Part shown: positions 12,990 through 34,890 of the stretch, in pieces
Layout of the letters: each line of letters begins with the position of its first letter
How positions within the stretch are numbered: position 1 is the stretch's first letter
Source: Roseivivax halodurans JCM 10272
GTDB taxonomy: Bacteria; Pseudomonadota; Alphaproteobacteria; Rhodobacterales; Rhodobacteraceae
Assembly: GCF_000521785.1 (NCBI RefSeq)
Contig: NZ_JALZ01000026.1
Coordinates: 1-36,673, forward strand
Direction of reading: 5' to 3'
Length of the DNA stretch: 36,673 nt
Made by a program: the position numbers and the translations under genes
The notes under the pieces: generated by a model
Told to the model about the DNA's origin: nothing
Database searches by the model: none
What the model saw: only the letters and a program-made list of their open reading frames with translations

Positions 12990-14429
12990 ATCCGGTTCTC
13001 GATTGCGATTTTCCTGATCCTCGTCCTCTCCGCCGTGGGCCTGACCTACGAGATTGCCGCGGGACGGGTGCTCGCGCCGTTCTTCGGAACCTCGCTGCTG
13101 ACATGGACGGCGGTGATCGCCACGGTCCTCGCAGGCTTCTCGCTTGGCAGCGCGCTCGGCGGGCTCGTGGCGGAGCGCGATCGTTCGGCCGCCATCGGCG
13201 CCGTGCGCACAGCACTGATCGCGACCGCGGTACTCATGGCGCTATCACCGACCTTGCTCGGCCTCGTTCACGCCTTCGGCGCGCGCGGCACCGGCGGGAT
13301 GCTGGTGAGCGTCATCGTGACCTTCTTCCCAGCCTCGGTCTGCGTGACCCTGCCTTCGCCGCTTCTCGCCAAGCTTGCCGTCGAGGCGCGGCCGGGCAGA
13401 GAGGGCTCGTCGCTTGGGTTCGTCCTGGCGGCGGGGTCGGTCGGCGCGATCTTCGGCGCGATCCTCGCGGGCTTCGTCAGCCTGCCGCTCATCGGCTCGA
13501 CCGCGACCTTCGCCGCCTGCGGCATCGCAGCTCTGATGTGCCTGCCATTCATGAAGACCGCCCGGCCGGGCGCCGGACCGCAAGCCGCTGTGGTGATCGC
13601 CGCGGCGGCATTCACGGTTTTTGCGGGTGTCGCCGGAGGATCCGCATGCCGTTACGAATCGGGTCTCTCCTGTCTGCATGTGCTGGAGCAGGGTGCGGAA
13701 GTTCGCCTCATATCGGACGGCACGACCCAGGCGGCGGAGCGCGTTCCGGCAGAGAGCGCACATTCCGACGAAACCACCGATCTTGCGCTTTCCTACACCC
13801 GATGGCTTTGGGCGAGCATGGACCGGGATCTCGGGCCTGACCCTTCGGTGCTCTTCGTCGGTGGAGGGGGCTACACTCTGCCGACGCGACTTCTTGCGTC
13901 GCGACCCGAGGCCCGGGCCGTGGCGGTCGAGATCGATCCGCTGGTGACCGAGGTGGTCCGCCGGCACCTGCCGCGCGCCGCGGCTATGATCGAAGAGGAG
14001 GGGGGCGACGGAGGCGGGCGTCTCGGACTCGTTCATGCCGATGGCCGCGTCTACATCAACGAGACCACACGCCGCTTCGATGCGGCCGTGATGGACGCGT
14101 TTTCGTCCGGATCGGTCCCGGCGCATCTGGTCACGCTCGAGACCTACGAGCGCCTGCGGGCGATCGTCGACGGTCCGGTCTACGTGAACCTGATCGACGC
14201 GCCCGACGGCCCTCTGGCTCGTGGGGTCCACGCGATCCTGGACGAGCTCTACCCGCATGTCCGGGTGGTGGCCGGTCCGATCGGAGCAAGCGGCCGCGGC
14301 AACGTTCTTCTCGCTGCCTCGAACGAGCGGCTCGATCCTCTGGGGGCAGGGCCCGATAACTACACGCCTGCCGAGATTTCGGAGGCGAGGGCCTTCACCG
14401 ACGACCGTGGATGGGTCGGCCATCGGTGA
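12990..14429 (+). CDS. Membrane-anchored spermidine-synthase-like protein, start codon atypical
   Basis: About 479 residues. The N-terminal half (about 1-220) has roughly six or seven hydrophobic helices (FSIAIFLILVLSAVGLTYEIAAGR, then LAGFSLGSALGGLVAE and others). The C-terminal half is a Rossmann fold of the spermidine synthase family, with VLFVGGGGYTLPTRLL near 290, VAVEIDP near 312 and VMDAFSSGSVP. Whether it is a true aminopropyltransferase is uncertain; many such fused proteins are uncharacterised. The homology-expected N-terminus has no ATG, GTG or TTG. A strong GGGAGG is followed by ATC codons at 12987 and 12990. The next in-frame upstream start is TTG 12870, giving 519 residues. The stop lies 30 bp from the convergent hydrolase gene. 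Confidence 0.75.
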   Translation: MRFSIAIFLILVLSAVGLTYEIAAGRVLAPFFGTSLLTWTAVIATVLAGFSLGSALGGLVAERDRSAAIGAVRTALIATAVLMALSPTLLGLVHAFGARGTGGMLVSVIVTFFPASVCVTLPSPLLAKLAVEARPGREGSSLGFVLAAGSVGAIFGAILAGFVSLPLIGSTATFAACGIAALMCLPFMKTARPGAGPQAAVVIAAAAFTVFAGVAGGSACRYESGLSCLHVLEQGAEVRLISDGTTQAAERVPAESAHSDETTDLALSYTRWLWASMDRDLGPDPSVLFVGGGGYTLPTRLLASRPEARAVAVEIDPLVTEVVRRHLPRAAAMIEEEGGDGGGRLGLVHADGRVYINETTRRFDAAVMDAFSSGSVPAHLVTLETYERLRAIVDGPVYVNLIDAPDGPLARGVHAILDELYPHVRVVAGPIGASGRGNVLLAASNERLDPLGAGPDNYTPAEISEARAFTDDRGWVGHR

Positions 14430-14459: not shown

Positions 14460-16475
14460 TCAGGTCATGACCCGGGGAACCGAGACCGACCAGTCGAGAT
14501 CGCGAACGAGCTCCTCGCCGGTCCAGGCGCGCAGGCAGGCCTCGATGTGGAAGTGATCGCGGTCCCCGGTCAGGTGCGTTTCCGTTTCGGTGCGCACGGA
14601 CCAGTCGTCGCGGCTCATCTCATGCACCCAGGTGACACGGCCCGAGGCCGATTGCGGATCCTGGGGCAGGATCGTGTAGATCTCGTGGCCCTCCGCCGAG
14701 TGGCGGAACTCCTGCGCCGAGATCACGGCGTCGCCCTCGTGGTCGCGCACCTCGACAGTCATGCGTCCGGTATCACGGTCCTCGGTCACGACCCACTCCG
14801 CCCTCGGCGGCGCCTGGACGTCGAGCGCGAGTGGCGGCCCCGCGCGCGGAGCCTCGAAATCCGCGGCCATGTCGACTTGCGCGTCGCGCAGCGGCAGCGA
14901 CAACGATGAACGAGCTGGGAGCAGGGTTAGGGTCACCCGCTCCGGCGTCGGCCAAGCGATCGGAAAGTAGCTCGTCGAGACGGAGAGCCGGATCCGGTGG
15001 CCGGCACGGAAAATCTGCGCGACGTGCTTGAACGGGACCTCGACGGTGTAATCCCGCCCGGGCTCGAGCGCCTCGGGGGTCTCATGGCCGTCGCGATGCG
15101 TCAGGTTGAGCAGACCGTAGCTCACGCGCGTCGCAGCGCCGTCGGGTGCGACGTCACTGAGACGAACGGCGACCTGTGCGACCGGCCGATCCACCCGGAA
15201 CGTCATCGTCAGGGTCGCGTCGCCTGCTATGGCGCGGTCCGCCTCCAGGGGGGCGGTCTCGAAGGTGAGGCTGCCCGCGTCGTCGCGGCGCTGGTCGCCC
15301 GGCTGGTCTCCGGGATGGGCGTAGGAACACCATTTGCCACCCTGCAGGCCGACCCAGAGGGGCGAGCATACCGACAGCGCCTCCTCGTCGGGGGCGGTAT
15401 CCGAGCCGAGGGATCCGTCGGACCCGAGGCGGAACGCGGTGCGGGTGACGTTCGGGGAAGGCCACGATGGCTCGGTGATCCAGTGGCCCTCGCGCATGTC
15501 GTAATGGCTGCGGGGCTCGGCGTGATCCTGAAGGAAGAGCCTGAGGGGAGGCTCGTCCATGATCCCTGTCTCCTCGCCCTTCATCCAGTAATCCCACCAG
15601 CGCGTCTCTTCGGTCAACCAGTCGATGGCGGGGCCGGGCTCGCCGAGATAGGGATATTTGTGAGCCCAGGGCCCGATGATCCCCTTGGCGGGCCCGCGCA
15701 GGTTCTCGACCAGCCGGAATACCGACCGGCAATAGCCGTCGGCCCAGCCGCTGACCGCGTAGACCGGCACTTCGACATCGTCCCAGTTCTCGCAGATCGA
15801 GGCGTGCTTCCAGAACTCGTCGCGGGTCTGGTGGTTCATCCACGTCTCGAGCCAGAGGCCCGAACCGTCGAGGCGGGCCTCCCACATCTCGCGCCACCGC
15901 TCGCCCACATGTTTCGGATCGGGCGGCAACGTGTTGATGCCGAACATGACCGACGCCCAGGAAAGCTGATCGCCAAGCAGCGTGCCGCCCATGTAGTGGA
16001 TGTCGTCGGCATATCGGTCGTCGGTCGAGCAGATGGTGACGACCGCCTTCAGGGCCGGAGGACGCAATGCCGCGATCTGCAGGCCGTTGAAGCCGCCCCA
16101 CGAGATGCCGACGATGCCGACGCCGCCGTCGCACCAGCCCTGGTCCGCGATCCAGGCGATGGCATCGCAGCCGTCCTGCAGCTCGATCTCGGTGTACTCG
16201 TCCGTCATCACGCCTTCGGACTCGCCGGTGCCGCGAATGTCGAGCCGCACATAGGCGTAGCCATGACCCGCGAGCCACGGCGCCCGAGCGGCGTCACGCT
16301 CGAGCGTCTTGTCGTTCTTGCGGTAGGGGATGTATTCGAGGATCGCCGGCACCGGGCGCGTCTCAGCGTCCTCCGGCATCCAGATCCGGGCGGCAAGCCG
16401 GGTGCCGTCGGGCATGGGAATCTCGACGTGCTCGAGTTCGCGCACGTCGCGGGTCAGGTCGGTGTCGACTTTCAT
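14460..16475 (-). CDS. CocE/NonD-family alpha/beta-hydrolase (X-Pro peptidase-like)
   Basis: The 671-residue protein has the S15/CocE layout. An alpha/beta-hydrolase core at about 15-320 has YVRLDIRGTGES near 75-86 and the nucleophile elbow GISWGG with Ser125. A C-terminal jelly-roll of the PepX_C type begins near 340 and contains RHGTRI-like strands such as RAGHRIRLSVS. It has no signal peptide, so it is cytoplasmic. Relatives hydrolyse acyl esters or X-Pro peptide bonds; the substrate here is unknown. It is last in the leftward cyanophycin operon, 75 nt after the ATP-grasp gene, suggesting an amide or ester bond in a cyanophycin-related product as target. That link is inference from position. 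Confidence 0.85.
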   Translation of the reverse strand: MKVDTDLTRDVRELEHVEIPMPDGTRLAARIWMPEDAETRPVPAILEYIPYRKNDKTLERDAARAPWLAGHGYAYVRLDIRGTGESEGVMTDEYTEIELQDGCDAIAWIADQGWCDGGVGIVGISWGGFNGLQIAALRPPALKAVVTICSTDDRYADDIHYMGGTLLGDQLSWASVMFGINTLPPDPKHVGERWREMWEARLDGSGLWLETWMNHQTRDEFWKHASICENWDDVEVPVYAVSGWADGYCRSVFRLVENLRGPAKGIIGPWAHKYPYLGEPGPAIDWLTEETRWWDYWMKGEETGIMDEPPLRLFLQDHAEPRSHYDMREGHWITEPSWPSPNVTRTAFRLGSDGSLGSDTAPDEEALSVCSPLWVGLQGGKWCSYAHPGDQPGDQRRDDAGSLTFETAPLEADRAIAGDATLTMTFRVDRPVAQVAVRLSDVAPDGAATRVSYGLLNLTHRDGHETPEALEPGRDYTVEVPFKHVAQIFRAGHRIRLSVSTSYFPIAWPTPERVTLTLLPARSSLSLPLRDAQVDMAADFEAPRAGPPLALDVQAPPRAEWVVTEDRDTGRMTVEVRDHEGDAVISAQEFRHSAEGHEIYTILPQDPQSASGRVTWVHEMSRDDWSVRTETETHLTGDRDHFHIEACLRAWTGEELVRDLDWSVSVPRVMT

Positions 16476-16502
16476 GGAACGTCATCCGATGGAGTTCTGG
16501 AG

Positions 16503-16527
16503 GGGCCCGCACGTTATCGACGGGCCC
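16503..16527 (-). other. GC-rich inverted repeat between ATP-grasp and hydrolase genes
   Basis: GGGCCCG (16503-16509) and CGGGCCC (16521-16527) can pair with an 11-nt loop. No T-tract follows on the minus strand, so it is not a good terminator. It may slow decay or processing of the operon messenger. Confidence 0.4.
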
Positions 16528-16550
16528 GCGCGCAAAGTCTATGGCCTGCG

Positions 16551-17849
16551 CTATTCCACGATGTCGGTGAACTCGTAATTGAGCTTCTTCATCACCTGTT
16601 CGTAGTTCCACAGAAGCTTCGACTGCTTGCCCGCGCCCATCCAGACCGACGCGATCGCAAAGCTGTAGGCGTCCTGTTCGGGAAGCTCGGAAAGCATCAT
16701 GCCCTTGCTGACGTACGAGACAATGCGCGTGCCTTCGACCGCTTCGCTGGCCACTTCGATCTCTGCCCGCGACGGGGCCCGGGCCACCCGCGCGTCGCGG
16801 AAGAAGACGCGGTAAAAGAATTCAGCGGCCACGTTCTGGGGGCCTTCCCCCCGCGGCATGTCCGGCTTCCGCCCGAGGCCAAGATCGATCGTGACCTGCT
16901 GGTGGGAGACTCCGTCGACCATCTCGAAAAGGTCGCAATGCGACTGCGCGATGCGGGTGTTGATCTCGAGAAGCCAGATCTTGTCCTGCACCTCGTCCCA
17001 GTAATACTCGATGTTGAAGCCCGCATTATCGTAGCCGATATGGCTCATGATCGTGCGGGTGATCTCCCACATCTTGTCCTGCACCTTGCGCGGAAGCTGC
17101 GAGGGATAGAGGTAGTAGAAGAAGCTCAGCACCTGTGGGTAGCGGATCGAATCGACCGTCCCGTAAGGCACCACCTCGCCGTCGTGGACGTAGCCCTCGA
17201 CGGTGCATTGCCGGCCCCCGATCACCTGCTCGGCCATGCAGTAATGGCCCTCGACCGCCCGGATCTCGTCCGGCAGATCCGCCTGGCTCAGCACGTGGTC
17301 GAAGGGTTCGCCGATGGTACGGATCTCGGCGCGCAGCTTTTCGGTCGCGAAATCGAAATCCTCGGGGCTGTCGATCCGGAAACCGAGGCGGGACCCCGAC
17401 GACTTGATCGGCTTGACGAAGAACGGAAACCGCAGGTCAGCTTCGCCAATCTTCGAGAGTGCGTTGTCGTCGAACGGATCGAAGGCGGTGAACTTCGGGA
17501 TGTGATCGGGAATCGCCTCGCGCATGACCGCACGCGACCAGTACTTGTGCTCGCATTTCAGCAACGCCTCAAGCGAGACCTGGGGCGTTCCGTATTTCTT
17601 GCAGAGGATCGGGAGCATGGTGGAGACGGGGAAGTCGATATATCCGACGATGGCGTCGATGCTGCCGTCGAAGGCGTCGAGGGTGGCCTCGGCCTCGGCC
17701 AACATGGCCGGAATGTCGAAATCCTGTGTCTCGGACACCTGTGCCGGCGTCAGGAGCGGGTGAAACGTGACGTTTTCCACCCCGCGCAGGCGCCGCAGGC
17801 GCTCGGCGTTGTAATCGTTCAAGCCGACGACGAATACGTTCTTGCTCAT
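16551..17849 (-). CDS. ATP-grasp ligase of unknown substrate, in the cyanophycin operon
   Basis: The 432-residue protein has a Rossmann-like N-terminal domain (about 4-95) and an ATP-grasp domain (about 100-310). Visible active-site elements are FVKPIKSSGSRLG (Lys146 in the ATP-binding loop), MAEQVIGGRQCTVEGYV near 205-221 and the metal-binding strand NIEYYWD...LLEINTR with Glu281, Glu295 and Asn297. All look intact, so an active carboxylate-amine ligase is likely. It is not CphA: it lacks the Mur-ligase half and the CphA N-terminal domain. It sits 66 nt downstream of cphA and upstream of a CocE hydrolase. It could make or modify a dipeptide or side chain of the polymer, or a separate metabolite. 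No closer name can be given. Confidence 0.82.
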   Translation of the reverse strand: MSKNVFVVGLNDYNAERLRRLRGVENVTFHPLLTPAQVSETQDFDIPAMLAEAEATLDAFDGSIDAIVGYIDFPVSTMLPILCKKYGTPQVSLEALLKCEHKYWSRAVMREAIPDHIPKFTAFDPFDDNALSKIGEADLRFPFFVKPIKSSGSRLGFRIDSPEDFDFATEKLRAEIRTIGEPFDHVLSQADLPDEIRAVEGHYCMAEQVIGGRQCTVEGYVHDGEVVPYGTVDSIRYPQVLSFFYYLYPSQLPRKVQDKMWEITRTIMSHIGYDNAGFNIEYYWDEVQDKIWLLEINTRIAQSHCDLFEMVDGVSHQQVTIDLGLGRKPDMPRGEGPQNVAAEFFYRVFFRDARVARAPSRAEIEVASEAVEGTRIVSYVSKGMMLSELPEQDAYSFAIASVWMGAGKQSKLLWNYEQVMKKLNYEFTDIVE

Positions 17850-17866
17850 CTCACCCCCTGGTTTCG

Positions 17867-17889
17867 GCGGGGCGCTTGTTTCGCCCCGC
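17867..17889 (-). other. Perfect 8-bp hairpin between cphA and the ATP-grasp gene
   Basis: GCGGGGCG (17867-17874) and CGCCCCGC (17882-17889) are complementary, with a 7-nt loop. There is no T-run on the minus strand. It could trim transcript level downstream of cphA or stabilise mRNA ends. Confidence 0.45.
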
Positions 17890-17915
17890 TCTGTTTCTGA
17901 TTGCCTTGGTGCCGG

Positions 17916-20564
17916 TCAGGTCTTTGCCAGGTCGGCCTGTTCGGGAAAGCTGCGTCCCTTCAGCCGTGCCGTCGTGCCCTCGATGTCATCGACAAGCAGC
18001 AGGAGGAAGTCCCCCTGGCGCGCCTCTTCCATCGCGCGCCCGACCGCGTCGGCCTCGCTCATGATGACCTCGACGCGCCCGGTCGAGCCGGCCTCCTGCG
18101 CGCCTTCCGAGATGAGCTTGGCGACTTCGCCCTCGGAGCGGCCGCGTGCGTCGGTCTCGTAGACGAAAACCGCGTCGCACATATGGGCAAGCTGGGCGCC
18201 AAGACCCTTGAGATCCTCGTCGCGGCGGTTGCCGGGCGCAGTCGCCACCCCGATCTTGCGCCGCGTTCCGAGCCCGGTCACCAGCGGCTCGAGCGCTTTC
18301 AGCGCCGGCACGTTGTGGCCGTAATCGATCAGGCACTTCACCCCGTCCGCCTCGAAATAGTTCGTGCGGCCGGGCATCTGCGCCGGCGTCGGATGGAAGG
18401 TCAGAAGCCCCGCGCGGATATCGTCGATCTCGATCCCGTGCGCCAGCGCGGCCGCCGCGGCAGCCATGGCGTTCTGCACGTTGAAGGGGGCGTGCCCCTC
18501 GAAGGTGATCGGAACGTCGTTCACCTGCGCGATCTCGACCGTCACCTTGCCGCGCAGGAGCACGATCCAGCCGTTCCTGACCGTCAGGACCATGCCAAGT
18601 TCACTCAGATGCTCGGTCAGCGCAGGGTTTTCCGGATCCATGGTGAAGTAGATGATCTCGCCACGCGCCCAGTAGGTTCCGTGCTCCATCACCAGCGGAT
18701 CGTCGGCGTTGAGAACGCAGAAGCCGCCTTCGGACTTGCGCTTGACCGCATCCACCACGACGGTCTTGCAGCGCGCGAGCTCTTCCAGCGTGTGGATGTC
18801 GCGCTCTCCGAGATGATCCGACGCGATATTGAGCAGAACGCCCACATCCGCTTCGTCGAAACCGAGACCGCGGCGCATGATGCCGCCGCGGGCGACCTCG
18901 AGCACCGCATGTTCGACCGTCGGTTCCCTGAGCACGGCCTGCGCCGCTGCGGGGCCGGAATAGTCGCCGCGCAGGATCACGTTGTTGTCGATTTCGACGG
19001 TGCCCGTGCAGCCCATCCCGACAGACCAACCGGCCTGACGGAGGATGTGGGAGGTCAGGCGGGTCGTCGTCGTCTTGCCGTTGGTGCCGGTGATCGCGGT
19101 GATCGGGATGCGGCCGTTATCGGTGACGTTCGGGAACAGCATGTCGACGATAGCCTGGCCGACCGGGCGCGGCTTGCCGTGGGTCGGTGCCATGTGCATG
19201 CGAAAGCCGGGTCCCGCGTTGACCTCCACGATGCCCGCGGATTGTTCTTCGAGCGGGACGGATACGGTCTCACACAGAAGGTCGATCCCGATGACGTCGA
19301 GCCCAATCAGCCGGGCCACGCGTTCCATCATGAACTTAACGGATGGATGCACCTCGTCGGTGAGATCCGTTGCGGTGCCGCCGGTCGAGATGTTCGCGGT
19401 CGATTTGAGGAAGGCGATCTCACCCTCTGGAAGAACCGTATCGACCGTCAGGCCCGCCTGTTCGAGCATCCGTTTCGTCTGCTCGTCCACCACGATCTGG
19501 GTCAATAGGTTCTCGTGTCCGACGCCGCGTCGGGGATCCTTGTTCTCCTCGTCGATGAGTTGCTGGATCGTGTGGATGCCGTCGCCGGTCACATGGGCCG
19601 GTCGGCGGCGGGCCGCGGCGATCAGCTTGCCGCCGACCACCAGCATGCGGTGATCCTCGCCCTTGATGTAGCTCTCGACAATGACACCCGCATAATCGTC
19701 ACGCGCCCGTGCGACAGCGGCCTCGTAGCCGGACTTCAGGTCTTCCTTGGAGGCGATGTCGGTGGTCACGCCGCGTCCGTGGTTGCCGGAAAGCGGTTTG
19801 GTGACGACGGGCCAGCCGATCCATTCGGCAGCAGCCTCGGCCTCTTCCCAGGAATAGCAGGTCTGGCCACGCGGCACCGCGATGCCAGCCTCGCCGAGTA
19901 TCTGCTTGGTCCAGTCCTTGTCGTCGGCGATTGAGTGCCCGATGATCCCCGACGCGTCCGTCACGGTAGCTTGGAAGCGCCGCTGCTTGATCCCGTGGCC
20001 GAGCTGTGTGTAACTCGTGCCTTCGGTCAGGTTGTAGGCGGGTATGCCTCGTGCCTTGGCGGCATTCACGATCGATCCTGTCGAGGGGCCGAGGGCGTTC
20101 GCATCACGTACCTTTTTCAGGTGGTCGATATAGGGCTGAAGCTCGACCTCTTGCTCTGTGTAGAGCTTGCGCGCGATATCCACGGCCGCTTCACCGGCGG
20201 CGAGGCCGGTGGCCTCATCGCGATAGCGATAGACGACATGGTAGATACCGGTCTCGTAGCTGTCGACCGTCTTTCCGTACCCCACTGTGAACCCGACGAG
20301 GTTCTGCAGCTCGATGGCGAGATGCTCGACCATGTGGCCGGCCCACGTGCCATTGCGCACACGCTGCAGAAATCCGCCGGCTTCGCCGACGGAGCATCTG
20401 TGGTCGTGTATCGACGGGATCAGCGCCTCGAGCCTTTCGGCTATGCCCGGCACCTTGTCGCTCGAGCGGTCTTCAAGGTCCTCAATGTCCAACCGCATGT
20501 AGATGGCTTGATAGCGGCTGTAGTAATTCGGCCCACGCAATGCGCGGTGTTCAAGTATATGCAA
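17916..20564 (-). CDS. cphA: Cyanophycin synthetase
   Basis: This enzyme polymerises aspartate and arginine into cyanophycin, a nitrogen reserve, using ATP. The 882-residue protein has the three expected parts. An N-terminal domain (about 1-160) begins with HILEHRALRGPNYYSRYQAI. An ATP-grasp domain has KPLSGNHGRG at 256-265 and EVNAGPG at 447-453. A Mur-ligase-like domain has the P-loop GTNGKTTTT at 493-501, NIASDHLG and PAQMPGRTNYFE. Length and motifs match active CphA1. The start is TTG at 20564, placed by homology and by GGAG seven nt upstream; the frame is open 44 codons further but that lies in cphB. It overlaps the cphB stop by 14 nt. Confidence 0.93.
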   Translation of the reverse strand: MHILEHRALRGPNYYSRYQAIYMRLDIEDLEDRSSDKVPGIAERLEALIPSIHDHRCSVGEAGGFLQRVRNGTWAGHMVEHLAIELQNLVGFTVGYGKTVDSYETGIYHVVYRYRDEATGLAAGEAAVDIARKLYTEQEVELQPYIDHLKKVRDANALGPSTGSIVNAAKARGIPAYNLTEGTSYTQLGHGIKQRRFQATVTDASGIIGHSIADDKDWTKQILGEAGIAVPRGQTCYSWEEAEAAAEWIGWPVVTKPLSGNHGRGVTTDIASKEDLKSGYEAAVARARDDYAGVIVESYIKGEDHRMLVVGGKLIAAARRRPAHVTGDGIHTIQQLIDEENKDPRRGVGHENLLTQIVVDEQTKRMLEQAGLTVDTVLPEGEIAFLKSTANISTGGTATDLTDEVHPSVKFMMERVARLIGLDVIGIDLLCETVSVPLEEQSAGIVEVNAGPGFRMHMAPTHGKPRPVGQAIVDMLFPNVTDNGRIPITAITGTNGKTTTTRLTSHILRQAGWSVGMGCTGTVEIDNNVILRGDYSGPAAAQAVLREPTVEHAVLEVARGGIMRRGLGFDEADVGVLLNIASDHLGERDIHTLEELARCKTVVVDAVKRKSEGGFCVLNADDPLVMEHGTYWARGEIIYFTMDPENPALTEHLSELGMVLTVRNGWIVLLRGKVTVEIAQVNDVPITFEGHAPFNVQNAMAAAAAALAHGIEIDDIRAGLLTFHPTPAQMPGRTNYFEADGVKCLIDYGHNVPALKALEPLVTGLGTRRKIGVATAPGNRRDEDLKGLGAQLAHMCDAVFVYETDARGRSEGEVAKLISEGAQEAGSTGRVEVIMSEADAVGRAMEEARQGDFLLLLVDDIEGTTARLKGRSFPEQADLAKT

Positions 20565-21411
20565 CCCTTCGCTCCAGGCCAATTGCCTTGAGCTCGTCCG
20601 GCCCGAGTACCCTTCGGTCTGCGAGATCGTAACCGTATCCTTGGACGAGCGCGTGCATCTTAACGTTGGAAACCGCGACAGGTTCCCCGTCCGCAAGGTC
20701 GAATACGTTCGATTCCCCGATTTCAGAGCTGTCCACGAGGATCACGTGCCCCGGGCCGAAGGCCCGCACGATGTCGCCGTCGAAATGCACCGCGGCATCC
20801 TCGCCGAGGCCGACTCCGAGATATTCGGGGTTCGTGGCACCGACTTCCATCAGCCGGCTGAAACGCCCGCGTTCGAGGAAATGCGTGTCGATGATGACAC
20901 CCTCCACGAAGCCGAAGCCGGCAGACATCTTCACCGCACCTTTGCGCAGGGAATCGTCGGCTGGGCCGCCGTAGACCATGGTTCGTGACTGGCAGGCCGC
21001 GCCGGCGCTCGTGCCCGCGATGACCGCGCCTTCCGCGCGGCGCCGACGGATCGCCTCGATCGCCCGCGAGGCACCGAGAACGTTGGTCAGCCGCATCTGG
21101 TCGCCGCCCGACAGGAAGATGACGTCCGCGCTGCGGATCATGTCGACATACTTGTCCGACTCGGCATTGCTGCGGTCGCGGATCCGGATGTCCAGGACGT
21201 CCTTCGCGCCGATCAGGCTGAAAACCTCCTTGTAGGAGGCGAAGACGTCCTCCGGAATGCTGCTCGCCGTGGTGATCACGCCCACGACGGGCGCCTCCAC
21301 GTTCGACAGGGACACGACATGGCGAAGGATGCTCGCCTCGGAGGCCTTGTCCTCGGCCCCGCCTATGGCCACCAGCGGGCCCGCGTTTGGAATCTTTGCG
21401 CTCATATTCAT
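20551..21411 (-). CDS. cphB: Cyanophycinase
   Basis: This S51-family serine peptidase cuts cyanophycin to beta-Asp-Arg dipeptides. The 286-residue protein has GPLVAIGGAEDK near the start, IFLSGGDQMRLTNVL and the nucleophile motif AGTSAGA with Ser135. FVEGVIIDTHFLERGRFSRL carries the histidine region. It has no signal peptide, so it works in the cytoplasm on intracellular polymer. ATG 21411 was chosen because GGGGG lies 9 nt upstream; a TTG at 21450 would add 13 residues and an ATG at 21405 would remove two. It is the first gene of the leftward operon and its 3' end overlaps cphA, so making and degrading enzymes are co-expressed. Confidence 0.92.
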   Translation of the reverse strand: MNMSAKIPNAGPLVAIGGAEDKASEASILRHVVSLSNVEAPVVGVITTASSIPEDVFASYKEVFSLIGAKDVLDIRIRDRSNAESDKYVDMIRSADVIFLSGGDQMRLTNVLGASRAIEAIRRRRAEGAVIAGTSAGAACQSRTMVYGGPADDSLRKGAVKMSAGFGFVEGVIIDTHFLERGRFSRLMEVGATNPEYLGVGLGEDAAVHFDGDIVRAFGPGHVILVDSSEIGESNVFDLADGEPVAVSNVKMHALVQGYGYDLADRRVLGPDELKAIGLERRVAYT

Positions 21412-21470
21412 CACCAGGGTCCCCCGATACGCGGTTACCGCGACTTTCAACTCTCTGGAAGGTTTATCAG

Positions 21471-21486
21471 TAAGCGATTAAGCGAT
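21471..21486. repeat. Tandem 8-bp direct repeat in the divergent cphB/peptidase region
   Basis: TAAGCGAT occurs twice back to back, in a GC-rich genome where this AT content stands out. It lies 60 bp upstream of the cphB start and about 105 bp upstream of the peptidase start. This suits a regulator that controls both directions, but no regulator gene is adjacent. Confidence 0.4.
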
Positions 21487-21540
21487 CGTTGGAAACTGGG
21501 ACGTCGCGGTCGCTCGATGCGGTGTCCATATTCAAGATAG

Positions 21541-21575
21541 GGGCGCTTCGCGCGAAGTCGCCCGCTTTTTGGGCG
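21541..21575 (+). terminator. Terminator-like hairpin in the leader of the isoaspartyl peptidase gene
   Basis: GGGCGCTTC (21541-21549) pairs with GAAGTCGCCC (21554-21563) with one bulged T and a GCGC loop, and is followed by GCTTTTTG. No gene ends upstream on this strand, so this would act within the peptidase leader. The 3' arm CGCCC (21559-21563) can also pair with GGGCG (21571-21575), giving a mutually exclusive hairpin just before the ribosome site. This arrangement is typical of attenuators. Confidence 0.45.
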
Positions 21576-21591
21576 CATGAAGGACGGAACG

Positions 21592-22524
21592 ATGTCAAAG
21601 ACCAGCGGATACAGCCTCGCGATCCATGGCGGAGCCGGCGTTCTGCCGCGCGAACGCATGACAGCCGAGCGCGAGGCCGCCACGCATGCCGCTCTCGGGC
21701 GAGTGCTTTCGGCGGGTGAGGCGGTGCTCTCCGGCGGCGGCTCGGCGCTCGATGCCGTGACCGAGGCGGTGGCCGCGCTCGAGGACGAGCCGCTCTTCAA
21801 CGCGGGCCGGGGCGCGGTCTTCACGCGCGACGGCAAGCACGAGATGGACGCCGCGGTGATGGTCGGCAGGGACCGCTCCGCCGGTGCGGTCGCAGGCATC
21901 TGCGGGCCGCGCAACCCGGTTCGGCTGGCGCGTGCGGTGATGGAGCGGACGAGCCACGTCCTGATGATCGGCGAAGGCGCGCTCGGCATCGCACGTGACG
22001 CAGGGCTCGCATTCGAAGACGACGCGTACTTCTTCACGCAGGAACGCTGGGACAGTCTGCAGGAAACCTTGCGTATGGAGCAGTCGGGCGAGCTCGACGA
22101 CGATCCCGCCCGCCGTCACGGAACGGTCGGAGCCGTTGCGCGAGACGCCGAGGGACGTCTCGCCGCGGCGACGTCGACAGGGGGCATGACCGCCAAGAGG
22201 GCGGGGCGGGTCGGCGACAGCCCGGTGATCGGCGCGGGAACATTCGCGGATGACGGAACCTGCGCGATCTCCGCCACCGGAGACGGCGAGGCGTTCCTGC
22301 GCCTGTCGGTCGCGCACGAGATCGATGCGCGGATGCGCCTGCGCGGCGAGAGCCTCCGCAGCGCTGCCGAGGCGGTGATCGGCTCGGATCTCGAGGCCAT
22401 CGGCGGCTCGGGCGGGCTCATCGCGATCGACCGCGACGGCGCGATCGTCACTCCGTACAATTGCGAAGGCATGTATCGCGGATGGGTGCTCGGATCGGGC
22501 GAGCGGGAGACCGCGATCTACTGA
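21592..22524 (+). CDS. iaaA: Isoaspartyl peptidase / plant-type L-asparaginase
   Basis: This Ntn-hydrolase, 310 residues, is made as a precursor that cleaves itself before the catalytic threonine. That residue is Thr178 in RRHGTVGAVARD. Other landmarks are YSLAIHGGAG at the N-terminus, FNAGRGAVFTRDGKHEMDAAVM and STGGMTAKRAGRVGDSPVIGAGTFA after the cut. It should split beta-Asp-Arg released by cyanophycinase into aspartate and arginine, completing degradation. ATG 21592 is preferred over ATG 21577 because AAGGA lies 7 nt upstream. It is divergent from cphB and preceded by an attenuator-like hairpin. Confidence 0.9.
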   Translation: MSKTSGYSLAIHGGAGVLPRERMTAEREAATHAALGRVLSAGEAVLSGGGSALDAVTEAVAALEDEPLFNAGRGAVFTRDGKHEMDAAVMVGRDRSAGAVAGICGPRNPVRLARAVMERTSHVLMIGEGALGIARDAGLAFEDDAYFFTQERWDSLQETLRMEQSGELDDDPARRHGTVGAVARDAEGRLAAATSTGGMTAKRAGRVGDSPVIGAGTFADDGTCAISATGDGEAFLRLSVAHEIDARMRLRGESLRSAAEAVIGSDLEAIGGSGGLIAIDRDGAIVTPYNCEGMYRGWVLGSGERETAIY

Positions 22525-22569: not shown

Positions 22570-23355
22570 TCACTCGCCGCGCCGCTCGCTGTCGAAGAGG
22601 CGCTGCTCGATGGAATCGAGGCGCTTGAGGACCTCGTCGCGATAGTCCGCGGTGGCGGCGTTCGATTCCTGCGCGTGGGCGTCCTGCATGCTGTTCACGA
22701 TCAGGCCGACCACGAGGTTCACCACCGCGAAGGTCGTGATCAGGATGAAGGGCACGAAGAATATCCACGCATAGGGATAGACCTCCATCACCGGGCGGAC
22801 GATCCCCATCGACCAGCTCTCGAGCGTCATGATCTGGAAGAGGGAATAGGCGGAATGGGGGATGTTGCCGAACCACTCCGGAAACGTGTCCCCGAAGAGC
22901 TTCGTCGCCATGACCGATGCGATGTAGAAGATCAGTGCCATCAGAAGGAAGACGGATGCCATGCCGGGCAGCGCCGAGACGAAGCCCTCGACCACCCGGC
23001 GCAGCGTCGGCGCGACCGAGATGATCCGGAGAAGCCTGAGAATGCGCAGCGCCCGGAGCACCGAAAGCCCTTGGGTGGCGGGCACAAGAGCGATGGCGAC
23101 GATGGCGAAATCGAAGACGTTCCAGCCCGATCGGAAGAACGAAGGCCCGCGCGCGAAGATCTTCAGCGCGATCTCGACCACGAAGATCGAGAGGCACAGC
23201 ATGTCGAGAAAGACGATGAGGCCCCCGGCGGCCGCCATCACCGTGTCGGATGTCTCGAGCCCGAGCACCACCGCGTTGAAGAGGATCACGCCCGTGATGA
23301 AGTTTCGCGTCACCTCGCGGTCGAGTGCTTCGGCAACTCGGTCTCTGATCGACAT
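22570..23355 (-). CDS. Voltage-gated sodium channel (BacNaV family)
   Basis: A single-domain, six-helix channel of 261 residues that forms tetramers. S4 carries four arginines at every third place (R101, R104, R107, R110 in VLRALRILRLLRII). The pore has the sodium filter TLESWSM at 177-183, followed by GIVRPVM, as in the structurally known NaVAb. The C-terminus ends in a coiled-coil helix (VLKRLDSIEQRLFDSE). The ATG at 23355 has GGAG six nt upstream; an earlier in-frame ATG at 23361 abuts that site. Such channels are common in marine and alkaliphilic bacteria and serve motility, pH or sodium signalling. It faces the peptidase gene convergently and no operon partner is evident. Confidence 0.92.
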   Translation of the reverse strand: MSIRDRVAEALDREVTRNFITGVILFNAVVLGLETSDTVMAAAGGLIVFLDMLCLSIFVVEIALKIFARGPSFFRSGWNVFDFAIVAIALVPATQGLSVLRALRILRLLRIISVAPTLRRVVEGFVSALPGMASVFLLMALIFYIASVMATKLFGDTFPEWFGNIPHSAYSLFQIMTLESWSMGIVRPVMEVYPYAWIFFVPFILITTFAVVNLVVGLIVNSMQDAHAQESNAATADYRDEVLKRLDSIEQRLFDSERRGE

Positions 23356-23650
23356 GCCCATCTCCGTTTCGGGAACCCGCCCCTCTATGCGGAAGGAGCC
23401 TTCGCGACACAAGACGCCGCCGGAAGCGGCAGGCCGACGCCGAATCTTTGCCAAATTGCCGCTCAAGCTGCCTTGCTTTGGCTATGGCTCCGCGAGCCGA
23501 TCCTGACCGCCGAAACTTGCGCGATCCGCCCGGCCATGCTTGCGTGATCGACACGGGCCGTCCGGCCAACCATCCGTCGGCGGCACCCAGAGTTGCGGCG
23601 GATAGGCTTCGGCCTGTGAGGGCCTGCGACCGGTCGCGAAAGGAATGGTA
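23356..23650. other. Divergent intergenic stretch
   Basis: This 295-bp region lies between the leftward channel and the rightward ABM-domain gene. It must hold both promoters, but I see no hexamer pair convincing enough to call and no RNA gene or repeat. AAGGA at 23639-23643 is the ribosome site of the next gene. Confidence 0.5.
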
Positions 23651-31941: not shown

Positions 31942-33021
31942 ATGAAACATCTGCTTGGTACCGCACTTGGCTGTGCGCTGGCACTGCCCGCCGCCACCTT
32001 CGCGCAGGAGACCATCCCCCTCACGGTGGCATCGAGCCATCCGACGGTGATCCCGTGGGTCGGCATGATCCAGACCCATTTCATGGCGCGCACCGACGAG
32101 ATTCTCGCGGAGGGCGGCAACTACCAGATCGAATGGAACGAGGCCTTCGGCGGACAGCTCTACAAGGCGAACGCGACGCTCGACTCGGTCGAGCAGGGCA
32201 TCACCGATATCGGCTGGGTGTTCTCGTTCCTAGAGCCCGCGAAGCTGCCGCTGAGCCAGGCCTCGTCCTACGCGCCGTTCTCGACCGCAGACGCCTCCAT
32301 GCAGCTCGAGGTCATGGCTGAGCTCTTCGAGACCAACGAGGCCTTCCGGAACGAGTGGGAGCAGTACAACCTCAAGGTCCTCGGCTTCACGGGGACCGAC
32401 AGCTACGACGTCTACGCCAAGGAGGAGCTCTCCGGATTCTCCGATCTCGACGGCATGAAGCTGTCGGCGCCTGGCGTGCTCGGCAACTGGCTGCGCGGGA
32501 CCGGGGCCAACGCGGTCGATGGTGCGCTCACCACGTTCTACACCGACATCCAGACCGGTGTGTCGGATGGCGTTCTGTCCCTCGCGCTCGGCGTGCTGCC
32601 GGCCAAGATCTACGAGGTCGCCCCCTTTGTTCACCGCTACGACCTGGGCGTGGCCTATTCGGGCGCGGTCGCGATCAACCGCGACAGCTGGGACAGCCTG
32701 CCCGAAGAGGTCCAGACCGCCATGATCGAGGCGGGCGAATACTACACCGAGAGCCACGGCCGGGACCTCAACGAGCGGCACGAGGCCGCGCTTGAGGCGA
32801 TGGTCGAAGCCGGGGCGCAGCAATCGCCGCCCGTCAAGATCATCGAGGTCGGCGAGGCGGACCGCGAGGCCTGGGTCCAGGCCATGCCGAACATCGCCAA
32901 GGAATGGGCCGACGGTCTTGAAGAGCAGGGCATCCCGGCGCGGGAGTTCATGCGCGCCTATCTCGACGGGATCCGCGAGCGGGGCGGGGAACCGGTGCGC
33001 GCCTGGGACGACGAGCTCTGA
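31942..33021 (+). CDS. dctP: TRAP transporter substrate-binding protein
   Basis: The 359-residue periplasmic protein has a signal peptide (about 1-22, ATFAQ end). The DctP pattern follows: LTVASSHPTVIPWVGMIQTHFMAR, EWNEAFGGQLYKANATLDSVEQGITDIGW, then DLDGMKLSAPGVLGNWLRGTGAN and FYTDIQTGVSDGVL. The last two hold the usual carboxylate-binding region. GGGAGGAG lies upstream of ATG 31942; earlier in-frame codons belong to the preceding gene. It delivers an organic acid, unidentified, to the DctQM permease. Expression with the CoA-transferase and dioxygenase regulon points to the pathway's growth substrate. Confidence 0.92.
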   Translation: MKHLLGTALGCALALPAATFAQETIPLTVASSHPTVIPWVGMIQTHFMARTDEILAEGGNYQIEWNEAFGGQLYKANATLDSVEQGITDIGWVFSFLEPAKLPLSQASSYAPFSTADASMQLEVMAELFETNEAFRNEWEQYNLKVLGFTGTDSYDVYAKEELSGFSDLDGMKLSAPGVLGNWLRGTGANAVDGALTTFYTDIQTGVSDGVLSLALGVLPAKIYEVAPFVHRYDLGVAYSGAVAINRDSWDSLPEEVQTAMIEAGEYYTESHGRDLNERHEAALEAMVEAGAQQSPPVKIIEVGEADREAWVQAMPNIAKEWADGLEEQGIPAREFMRAYLDGIRERGGEPVRAWDDEL

Positions 33022-33025
33022 TCCC

Positions 33026-33580
33026 GTGAGGTCCGAAACCGACAGCGAAGACGGTGCCGAGCTTCGGCACCGGTCCGCACCGGAGCGGATCTGGGCCCTG
33101 GTGGTCGACGCTCTCGCCGCGCTCGGAACGTTCCTGATCGCGGGGCTGATGCTGCTCATCTGTGCAGATATCGTCGCACGGAACGGGATGGGCTCTTCGC
33201 TGCCCCTGATTTCGGAGCTCGGAGCGCTTCTCCTCGTCATGATCGTCTGTCTTCAGCTTGCCGCGACGATCAGGGCCGACCGTCTTGCGCGAGCCGGACT
33301 CTTCATCACCCCCGTGAGCGCCTCACGCCCGCGTACGGGGGCCGCGTTCGAAGCCGCCTTCTGCCTTGTCGGCGCCCTGATGGTCGGGATGATGGCCTGG
33401 GCGACGCTCGATGTGCTGGCGGCCGACTGGGAGCGTGGCGAGTTCATCGGCACGCCCGGTCTCGGCACCCTTCCCACATGGCCGTTCCGCCTCCTCATCC
33501 TGATCGGCCTCACGGTCGCGGCGGTCGAATTCCTGGTCCGGGCGCTGCGGTCCCTGCGGCTTGCGGCAGGCGCCGCATGA
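33026..33580 (+). CDS. dctQ: TRAP transporter small membrane subunit
   Basis: The 184-residue protein has four membrane helices at about 27-50, 60-85, 105-128 and 145-170. ADIVARN and ELGALLLVMIVCLQLAATIRADRLAR near 50-90 are typical of DctQ. The start is GTG at 33026, four nt after the dctP stop, because the translated frame before it runs through dctP and there is no ATG near. The ribosome site is weak, so coupling to dctP is likely. It overlaps dctM by ATGA. Confidence 0.87.
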   Translation: MRSETDSEDGAELRHRSAPERIWALVVDALAALGTFLIAGLMLLICADIVARNGMGSSLPLISELGALLLVMIVCLQLAATIRADRLARAGLFITPVSASRPRTGAAFEAAFCLVGALMVGMMAWATLDVLAADWERGEFIGTPGLGTLPTWPFRLLILIGLTVAAVEFLVRALRSLRLAAGAA

Positions 33581-34890
33581 GCCCGCTCGAGATCGGCTAT
33601 TCCGCCGTCGGCGGCCTCGTCCTGCTGATCTACCTGGGCATGCCGATCGGCATCGCGATGCTCGGCGTCTCGTTTGTCGGCGTGGCCATGATCCGCAACG
33701 ATGCCGTCGCGCTGAATATGCTCGGCGCGGTCGGCAACGACAGCCTTCGCGAATATCTCTTCGCCGTGGTGCCTCTCTTCGTGCTGATGGGTCTCCTGGT
33801 GACGGTCTCCAATGTCGGCAAGGACACGTTCGACGTCTTCCAGCGCATGATGCGCAACGTGACAGCGGGCCTTGGCATAGCGACGGTCTTCGCCAACGCG
33901 GTCTTCGCCTCCATTACCGGCATCTCGATCGCCTCGGCCACGGTCTTCAGCCGTGTCGCCGTGCCGGAAATGACGCGCCACGGCTACACTAAGCGGTTCG
34001 CAACCGGGGTCGTCGCCGGCTCTTCGGTTCTCGGCATGCTGATCCCTCCCTCGCTCCTGATGATCGTCTACGCCGTCCTCGCCGAGCAATCGGTCGGACG
34101 CATGTTTCTCGCCGGCGTCGGTCCCGGTCTTCTGCTGTCGGTGGTCTTCGCGGTCACGATCTTGATCCTCGCGCGACGCTCCAAGTCCTTCGTGTTCGAG
34201 ACGACCGACGACGCCGAGGCCTACGCCGACCTCTCTCCAGGCGATTTCATCCGGAAATGCATCCCGATCCTGTCGCTCATGACGGTTGTCCTGGGCGGTC
34301 TCTATGGCGGGTTCCTGAACCCGACGGAGGCGGGCGCGGCCGGAGCGGCGGGGGCGCTCGTCATCGCATTGCTCCGCCGTTCGCTGCCCAAGCGCACGCT
34401 CTGGAACCTGATGGTGGAGACGGGCCAGATCACCGTGTCGGTGCTGTTCCTGATCCTCGCGGCCACCTTCTTCAGCCGGATGCTGGCGCTCTCCGGAGTG
34501 CCGCGGGAACTTGCGGGCCTGTTCCTCGACACCTCCATCGGACCCTACGGATTTCTGATCGCCTACCTTCTTCTGATCATCGTTCTGGGCTGCCTGATCG
34601 ATTCCATCTCGATCATGCTGATCGTGCTCCCGATCGCCCTGCCGGTGGCGGAGGCCGCAGGCTTCGACCTCATCTGGTTCGGGGTCCTGACCGTGGTGGC
34701 GGTCGAGCTGGGATTGCTCACCCCGCCGTTCGGGCTCTCGGTCTATACGATCAAGTCGGCGATCGAGGATCCGGACCTCTCGGTCGGCGACATCTTCCGC
34801 GGCACCTTGCCGTTTGTCGCTGCGATGCTCGTGGCTCTGGCGATCCTCGTCATCTTCCCGCCCATCGCGACTTGGCTCGCGCGGCTCTGA
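33577..34890 (+). CDS. dctM: TRAP transporter large membrane subunit
   Basis: The 437-residue DctM permease has about twelve helices. Family segments include LGMPIGIAMLGVSFVG, ANAVFASITGISIASATVFSRVAVPEM, GVVAGSSVLGMLIPPS and GFLNPTEAGAAGAAGALV, and it ends in ELGLLTPPFGLSVYTIKS. It moves the substrate with sodium ions. The ATG at 33577 overlaps the dctQ stop. With dctP and dctQ it forms a complete transporter. Confidence 0.92.
   Translation: MSPLEIGYSAVGGLVLLIYLGMPIGIAMLGVSFVGVAMIRNDAVALNMLGAVGNDSLREYLFAVVPLFVLMGLLVTVSNVGKDTFDVFQRMMRNVTAGLGIATVFANAVFASITGISIASATVFSRVAVPEMTRHGYTKRFATGVVAGSSVLGMLIPPSLLMIVYAVLAEQSVGRMFLAGVGPGLLLSVVFAVTILILARRSKSFVFETTDDAEAYADLSPGDFIRKCIPILSLMTVVLGGLYGGFLNPTEAGAAGAAGALVIALLRRSLPKRTLWNLMVETGQITVSVLFLILAATFFSRMLALSGVPRELAGLFLDTSIGPYGFLIAYLLLIIVLGCLIDSISIMLIVLPIALPVAEAAGFDLIWFGVLTVVAVELGLLTPPFGLSVYTIKSAIEDPDLSVGDIFRGTLPFVAAMLVALAILVIFPPIATWLARL

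Follow-up and report, generated by a model that had tools for sequence, protein, structure and literature searches.

The window, a 36,673-nucleotide stretch of Roseivivax halodurans JCM 10272 (contig NZ_JALZ01000026.1), carries a cyanophycin-type operon in which the genes for cyanophycinase (CphB) and cyanophycin synthetase (CphA) share a run with genes for an ATP-grasp ligase and a CocE-type hydrolase. This operon may be a variant of the cyanophycin system. The ATP-grasp enzyme would make a ligated product, a CphA of a separate clade would use this product, and CocE would recycle it. This explanation is preferred here, tentatively and with considerable doubt. The asymmetric occurrence of the genes, the predicted dipeptide-ligase fold of the ATP-grasp enzyme, and the sequence changes specific to the CphA clade together favor a supplied building block that is recycled by CocE.

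The five-gene cluster

CphB, CphA, the ATP-grasp enzyme, and CocE are encoded in a leftward run with gaps of at most 75 bp, and the gene for the isoaspartyl peptidase IaaA is divergent. All five frames are open. A preliminary description of this DNA had named the same five genes in the same order, which was borne out as follows:

14460..16475, minus strand, CocE/NonD (S15) alpha/beta hydrolase, from TIGR00976, the catalytic triad, and an AlphaFold2 (AF2) model; extra C-terminal beta region at ~550-671
16551..17849, minus strand, ATP-grasp ligase with a predicted L-amino-acid-ligase-like fold and no characterized family, from PF13535 and an AF2 model
17916..20564, minus strand, CphA of the ATP-grasp-associated ('N-type') clade, from TIGR02068, the clade tree, and residue tables
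20551..21411, minus strand, CphB cyanophycinase, from TIGR02069
21577..22524, plus strand, IaaA isoaspartyl peptidase, divergent, from PF01112

Judged from the sequence, cphA probably starts at the TTG at 20564 and cphB probably at the ATG at 21411. The two genes overlap by ~14 bp if this TTG is used. The spacing is 66 bp between cphA and the ATP-grasp gene and 75 bp between the latter and cocE, and iaaA diverges across 165 bp. The R. halodurans genome contains one match to the ATP-grasp enzyme of the window. Intact catalytic motifs had been claimed for all five proteins. This was upheld by individual residues for CphA and CocE and by eye for CphB; for the ATP-grasp enzyme it is reflected only in conservation, and for IaaA only in the Pfam score.

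A three-sequence profile scan of genome contigs returned at least 547 relatives of the ATP-grasp enzyme, and the best 80 were kept (the 80 loci). All five genes are present in 38 of these loci, CphA in 54, CphB in 53, and IaaA in 41. CphA lies directly upstream of the ATP-grasp gene on the same strand in 48/80 loci, and CocE directly downstream of it in 72/80. The loci come from Rhodobacterales, Devosia, Pararhizobium, Fodinicurvata/Ferruginivarius, Halomonadaceae, and metagenome-assembled genomes (MAGs) labelled Desulfobacteraceae/Desulfobulbaceae, among others. Roseivivax halotolerans also carries the full set of five. Many of the host genera are presumably halophilic or marine. With all five genes in 38 of the 80 loci, the arrangement is not due to chance, and the adjacency is not confined to this strain, the outcome that the preliminary description had named as refuting its idea. 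In Halomonas, the neighboring TelA and major facilitator superfamily (MFS) proteins gave no functional clue.

Co-occurrence of CphA and the ATP-grasp–CocE pair

The distribution of the genes was followed in 151 Halomonadaceae genomes, with an ATP-grasp orthologue defined as a match of at least 686 bits and CphA as a match over the cut-off. The orthologue was found in 62 genomes and CphA in 45. All 45 cphA-positive genomes have ATP-grasp, compared with 17 of the 106 cphA-negative ones (Fisher p ~1e-24). cphA and the ATP-grasp gene lie within 10 kb on one contig in 20 of the 45 genomes and do not in the other 25. For a phylogeny-controlled test, an rpoB tree was used that covers 110 of the 151 genomes, with results averaged over 200 pairings. 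On this tree, cphA needs 15 changes and ATP-grasp 17. Among 14 independent pairs differing in cphA, ATP-grasp differed in the same way in 8.6, in the opposite way in 0.0, and not at all in 5.4 (median p 0.004). The phylogeny-controlled test agrees with the co-occurrence counts. As had been proposed, ATP-grasp and CocE are tied to CphA and to each other. A chance neighborhood, or hitchhiking after horizontal transfer, is scarcely credible as an explanation. Transfer would suit a cluster common to alphaproteobacteria, gammaproteobacteria, and Thermodesulfobacteriota MAGs, but the association survives control for phylogeny and is also seen in the 25/45 genomes without the two genes inside 10 kb.

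CphA was found in 8 of the 198 genomes of the window's family. The ATP-grasp gene stands beside it in G000 and G170, and no full-length ATP-grasp match was found in the other six (G031, G034, G036, G043, G055, and G141). A phylum panel yielded CphA in 29 of 398 genomes. Among 35 genomes encoding CphA or a CphA-like protein, ATP-grasp was detected at an expectation value (E) of 1e-20 in G376, G721, and G994, which are the three with a clade CphA, and was not found at this threshold in the remaining 32. The CphAs of G245, G442, and G542 were left out of the alignment. G000, G170, G376, and the 45 Halomonadaceae give a count of 48/48 CphA genomes with ATP-grasp; alignment of 43 of the 48 CphAs showed N-type in every case.

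The pair also occurs alone. The ATP-grasps of cphA-negative Halomonadaceae are scattered among those of cphA-positive genomes (7 changes on the tree), and CocE is directly downstream of ATP-grasp in 20/20 cphA-negative and 17/17 cphA-positive loci. Genome G047 of the window's family has adjacent genes for ATP-grasp (36%) and CocE (47%) and no CphA over the cut-off. It belongs to a set of 23 genomes with ATP-grasp not beside cphA, of which 15 have CphA over the cut-off elsewhere and 8 have none. Paralogous ATP-grasps (37-44%) were examined in 16 Halomonadaceae loci (L170-L185), fetched out of 31 lower-scoring matches. CocE follows the paralogue in 15 of the 16, and no cph gene occurs in any of the 16 stretches; CphA over the cut-off is present elsewhere in 7 of these genomes and absent in 9. 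ATP-grasp and CocE form an independent module that outlives CphA, and CphA of the clade was not seen without the ligase.

The main idea of the preliminary description was that the pair modifies finished cyanophycin and removes the mark again. The conserved adjacency agrees with this idea, as does the manner in which ligase and hydrolase mirror CphA and CphB. However, the pair persists without CphA in 17 of the 62 Halomonadaceae genomes and in 9 of the 16 paralogue genomes, where a pair acting only on polymer would have no substrate. Since such genomes, G047 included, lack CphA over the cut-off, polymer marking cannot well be the only job of the pair; the tie to CphA stands, and the idea as a whole is improbable. 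The asymmetry is expected of an enzyme that supplies CphA with a substrate and is also useful by itself, and is not expected of a polymer-only decorator. The second suggestion of that description, a different Asp/Arg-derived product, comes closer to the evidence.

The CphA clade

The window CphA scored 1126 bits against TIGR02068 (cut-off 850), with its Pfam domains in the order N-G-M. It retains Cx19HxxEH, H267, R309, R323, N394, S396, R458, K499, D585, and H586. Every one of the 77 clade rows, which include a few duplicates of one genome, keeps the tested catalytic residues of the N, G, and M domains. In a tree of 59 CphAs (quick search, Shimodaira–Hasegawa-like approximate likelihood ratio support), those from ATP-grasp loci (28/59 rows) form one side of a branch with a support of 100 and a long stem. 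In the comparison made, the window CphA shares 39-44% identity with other CphAs over the cut-off.

The clade differs from other CphAs near positions predicted to recognize the side chain. PGDRRD is changed to PGNRRD in 105/105 distinct clade sequences (85 + 20, in two residue tables). The D of this motif is present in 37 of 39 other CphAs, the exceptions being L189 (N) and L192 (G), which are both divergent. The acidic motif after PGNRRD has 14 residues in 87/87 clade rows, compared with 15 in 37 of 38 readable others, and carries ETD or ESD in 79/87 clade rows. By analogy with MurE (Arg389, DNPR motif), these M-lid changes presumably fall where CphA binds the amino acid to be added as a side chain.

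Position 215 was also compared. The 105 distinct clade sequences have Ser (63), Gly (40), or Ala (2), and none has the acidic residue expected of CphA1. The 39 other CphAs have Glu (16), Asp (2), Ser/Ala (20), or Arg (1). According to excerpts of PMC9427784, Glu215 of TeCphA1 touches the terminal Arg side chain of the polymer, and its loss removes most activity in TeCphA1 and about half in SuCphA1. Since Ser/Ala215 is common in other CphAs, residue 215 alone is a weak criterion and no sign of a new substrate. Loss of Glu215 was considered as a unique marker of the clade and was dropped after tandem CphAs from the phylum panel had been included.

In loci L239-L257 of the same phylum, CphA is mostly encoded by one member of an adjacent pair of cphA genes; these CphAs have Ser/Ala215, a shared 'Y[QE]DxxQRGR', and no accompanying ATP-grasp gene. 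They may be another group, possibly with a different substrate, and perhaps come from betaproteobacteria. A divergent CphA-like protein at L189 (G362) is 35% identical, has Ser215 and Asn in the PGDRRD motif, and comes from a genome without an ATP-grasp match.

Cx19HxxEH is given in an excerpt of PMC9262961 as the primer-making site of CphA. This site is intact in all 77 clade rows, and a role of the ATP-grasp enzyme as primer maker for a primer-dependent CphA was disfavored. The window system shares with canonical CphA1 (TIGR02068), accompanied by CphB and IaaA or IadA, the three domains, the tested catalytic residues, the primer site, CphB, and an isoaspartyl dipeptidase. It differs in the separate clade, PGNRRD, the shorter neighboring motif, the lack of an acid at 215, and the constant presence of ATP-grasp in sampled genomes.

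The ATP-grasp ligase

Two general Pfam models recognized the ATP-grasp enzyme, PF13535 at 38.9 bits (cut-off 27) and PF02786 at 30.2 bits (cut-off 19.8); it passed no NCBIfam cut-off. Searched with the A3 profile, the PDB gave no relative at 1e-5. The AF2 model has a predicted local distance difference test (pLDDT) score of 92. Among the best 50 Foldseek matches listed, the highest query template modeling (TM) scores belong to the L-amino-acid ligases 3vot (0.72, target 0.75) and 3vmm (0.71). RizA (4wd3) has 0.64 for the query and 0.71 for the target, and biotin carboxylases reach 0.65. By TM-score within these matches, the modeled enzyme appears closest in fold to L-amino-acid (dipeptide) ligases. 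BL00235 (3vot), BacD/YwfE (3vmm), and RizA (4wd3) would share its fold, whereas the window enzyme is only ~15% identical to such ligases, stands beside cyanophycin or stress genes, and has no known substrate.

Plasmid relatives of the ATP-grasp enzyme (24-33% identity) lie in unrelated gene settings. On a Sphingomonas koreensis plasmid (L039, 6704-9579), a relative is split in two around an IS3 family element, and a one-piece relative is present in L037.

The CocE-type hydrolase and the breakdown enzymes

CocE scored 240 bits against TIGR00976 (cut-off 66). Its triad S125, D246, and H272 aligns with that of cocaine esterase and is invariant in 28 sequences. The AF2 model has a mean pLDDT of 75.5, and its nearest fold is cocaine esterase. 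The residue at +3 from Ser125, which we take to be the carboxylate-cluster place of alpha-amino-acid ester hydrolase, was read by eye as Gly. Window CocE and cocaine esterase/CocE-NonD (TIGR00976) have the serine triad, the PepX_C domain, and the fold in common. In contrast to cocaine esterase, to which it is ~23% identical in the fold alignment, window CocE has the extra C-terminal beta region and a ligase partner.

CphB scored 227 bits against TIGR02069 (cut-off 127). Its pocket residues Gln101, Asp172, Arg178, Arg180, and Arg183 are present as read by eye, and Gln173 is replaced by Thr. The pocket residues follow PMC3235067, according to which Gln173 orients the catalytic His and CphE likewise has Thr. 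The Thr of CphB was considered as a sign of a changed substrate and rejected for these two reasons. IaaA scored 330.5 bits against PF01112 and 305 bits against the NCBIfam equivalog PRK10226, under its cut-off of 567. Of 24 fetched Halomonadaceae loci in which cphA stands apart from the pair, 23 have one and the same gene cluster downstream of cphA, and a member of this cluster passes the IadA model TIGR01975 (390 bits, cut-off 331).

These enzymes bear on the possibility that CocE is the missing isoaspartyl dipeptidase, with an unrelated task for the ATP-grasp enzyme. A cocaine-esterase-like gene (25-30% identical) in NZ_SJEY01000003 is proposed as a candidate for this dipeptidase in an excerpt of PMC10206079, the main text of which does not mention 'ATP-grasp'. 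The preliminary description had missed both this printed mention and the separate CphA clade. However, the same record (L065) also holds IaaA beside cphB, and the dipeptidase role is usually filled by IaaA or IadA where examined, as the 41 of 80 loci with IaaA and the Halomonadaceae loci with IadA illustrate. Where either is present, CocE would be redundant as an isoaspartyl dipeptidase. CocE also pairs with ATP-grasp even where cphA is absent, and a dipeptidase role is therefore very improbable.

Salt, stress, and ectoine

The 16 paralogue loci contain a DUF892 gene in 6 cases, a KGG stress gene in 5, and an Mn-catalase in 3; these genes were counted by cluster, with one member per cluster named. 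Ectoine-use genes occur in 8 of 57 non-Halomonadaceae loci (L042, L056, L064, L065, L067, L070, L085, and L086). The 57 consist of 53 of the 80 loci plus L114, L118, L042, and the window, and three of them are from Thermodesulfobacteriota. The eight loci show about five arrangements, in which the ectoine genes share a stretch with the operon or with the ATP-grasp/CocE pair. At L067, DoeA/EutD, EutC, and EutB pass NCBIfam cut-offs, and the EutA-like gene does not. Ectoine genes were found in none of the 25 Halomonadaceae pair loci, the 16 paralogue loci, the 13 loci with other-type CphA, or the 25 loci with cphA apart from the pair (24 from Halomonadaceae).

A tripartite ATP-independent periplasmic (TRAP) transport system is near in seven of the ectoine loci. 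The binding protein of L042 matches 3fxb, 3gyy, and 2vpn, which we take to be ectoine-binding entries, and the other six binding proteins are 73-88% identical to it. Since the ectoine loci are related to each other, the link to ectoine is suggestive only. The window itself has a TRAP transporter binding protein and a large permease at 31942-34890; no test made here gave an ectoine type.

A solute could account for this setting. The pair would form and remove a solute with a stress or osmotic role, made from amino acids or cyanophycin-breakdown dipeptides; CphA would make ordinary cyanophycin, and the two would be linked by common supply or regulation and not by polymer chemistry. The existence of the pair without cphA, the stress genes of the paralogue loci, the ectoine-use genes, and the presumably halophilic or marine genera of many hosts are all in line with this. 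Left unexplained, however, are the clade CphA that is never found without ATP-grasp and the changes specific to that clade, and a solute as the whole explanation is possible but rather unlikely.

N-acetylglutaminylglutamine amide (ngg) is an osmolyte system with a ligase and a peptidase. The window pair resembles it in the ligase joined to a peptidase and in the osmotic setting, by analogy only. Unlike ngg, no GNAT domain or asparagine-synthase partner was seen at window-type loci.

Proposed pathway

In the preferred explanation, a supplied building block, the ATP-grasp enzyme would ligate a pair of small molecules, probably amino acids, to give a soluble product. The clade CphA would use this product, most simply by attaching it to the Asp side chain, either instead of Arg or alongside it. 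CphB and IaaA (IadA in Halomonadaceae) would dismantle the polymer, and CocE would hydrolyze the product released from it. In cells without CphA, the soluble product would serve alone, perhaps as a stress or osmotic solute.

Several observations weigh against this explanation. Neither the ATP-grasp enzyme nor CocE has a known substrate, and the lowest Foldseek E-values for the former belong to biotin carboxylases. Every catalytic residue tested in the clade CphA is ordinary, and the CphB pocket also looks ordinary by eye. Ser/Ala215 is shared by 20 of 39 other CphAs, nearly all of them from tandem CphA genes without ATP-grasp. The M-lid motif is read by analogy with MurE and not from a structure. 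CocE is not beside ATP-grasp in 8/80 loci; in seven of these genomes, a search found a CocE relative elsewhere in five (one of them a fragment) and none in two. Some of the cphA-negative Halomonadaceae genomes may reflect gaps, as genome completeness is not given.

A broader and more speculative version is unlikely as a whole. Halophilic or marine Proteobacteria would have a second cyanophycin-like polymer, in which a ligase-made unit is strung along poly-Asp by the N-type CphA and recycled by CphB, IaaA/IadA, and CocE. The unit could also serve by itself as a solute. Polymerization would then let the cell bank a soluble metabolite of osmotic or stress function in an osmotically silent form, and ectoine turnover might be coupled to it.

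Work on cyanophycin enzymes is aimed at materials and nitrogen stores. An entire CphA clade that was always accompanied by a dipeptide-ligase-like enzyme in the genomes sampled, from alphaproteobacteria, gammaproteobacteria, and Thermodesulfobacteriota, suggests a product that Asp/Arg assays could miss. This clade may store a building block other than that of the textbook polymer. No description of this ATP-grasp enzyme with cyanophycin was found in a limited literature search, outside which most subscription journals fall. The ATP-grasp enzyme in PMC9332814 is a mycosporine ligase, and neither the passages on it nor those of PMC6920838 on cyanophycin and gene clusters place a ligase beside cphA.

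Neighboring genes

An ion-channel protein (PF00520) is encoded at 22570-23466 of the window, adjoining iaaA on the opposite strand. On the other side, at 13035-14429, a fused MFS/spermidine-synthase-like protein (NF037959) is convergent with cocE.

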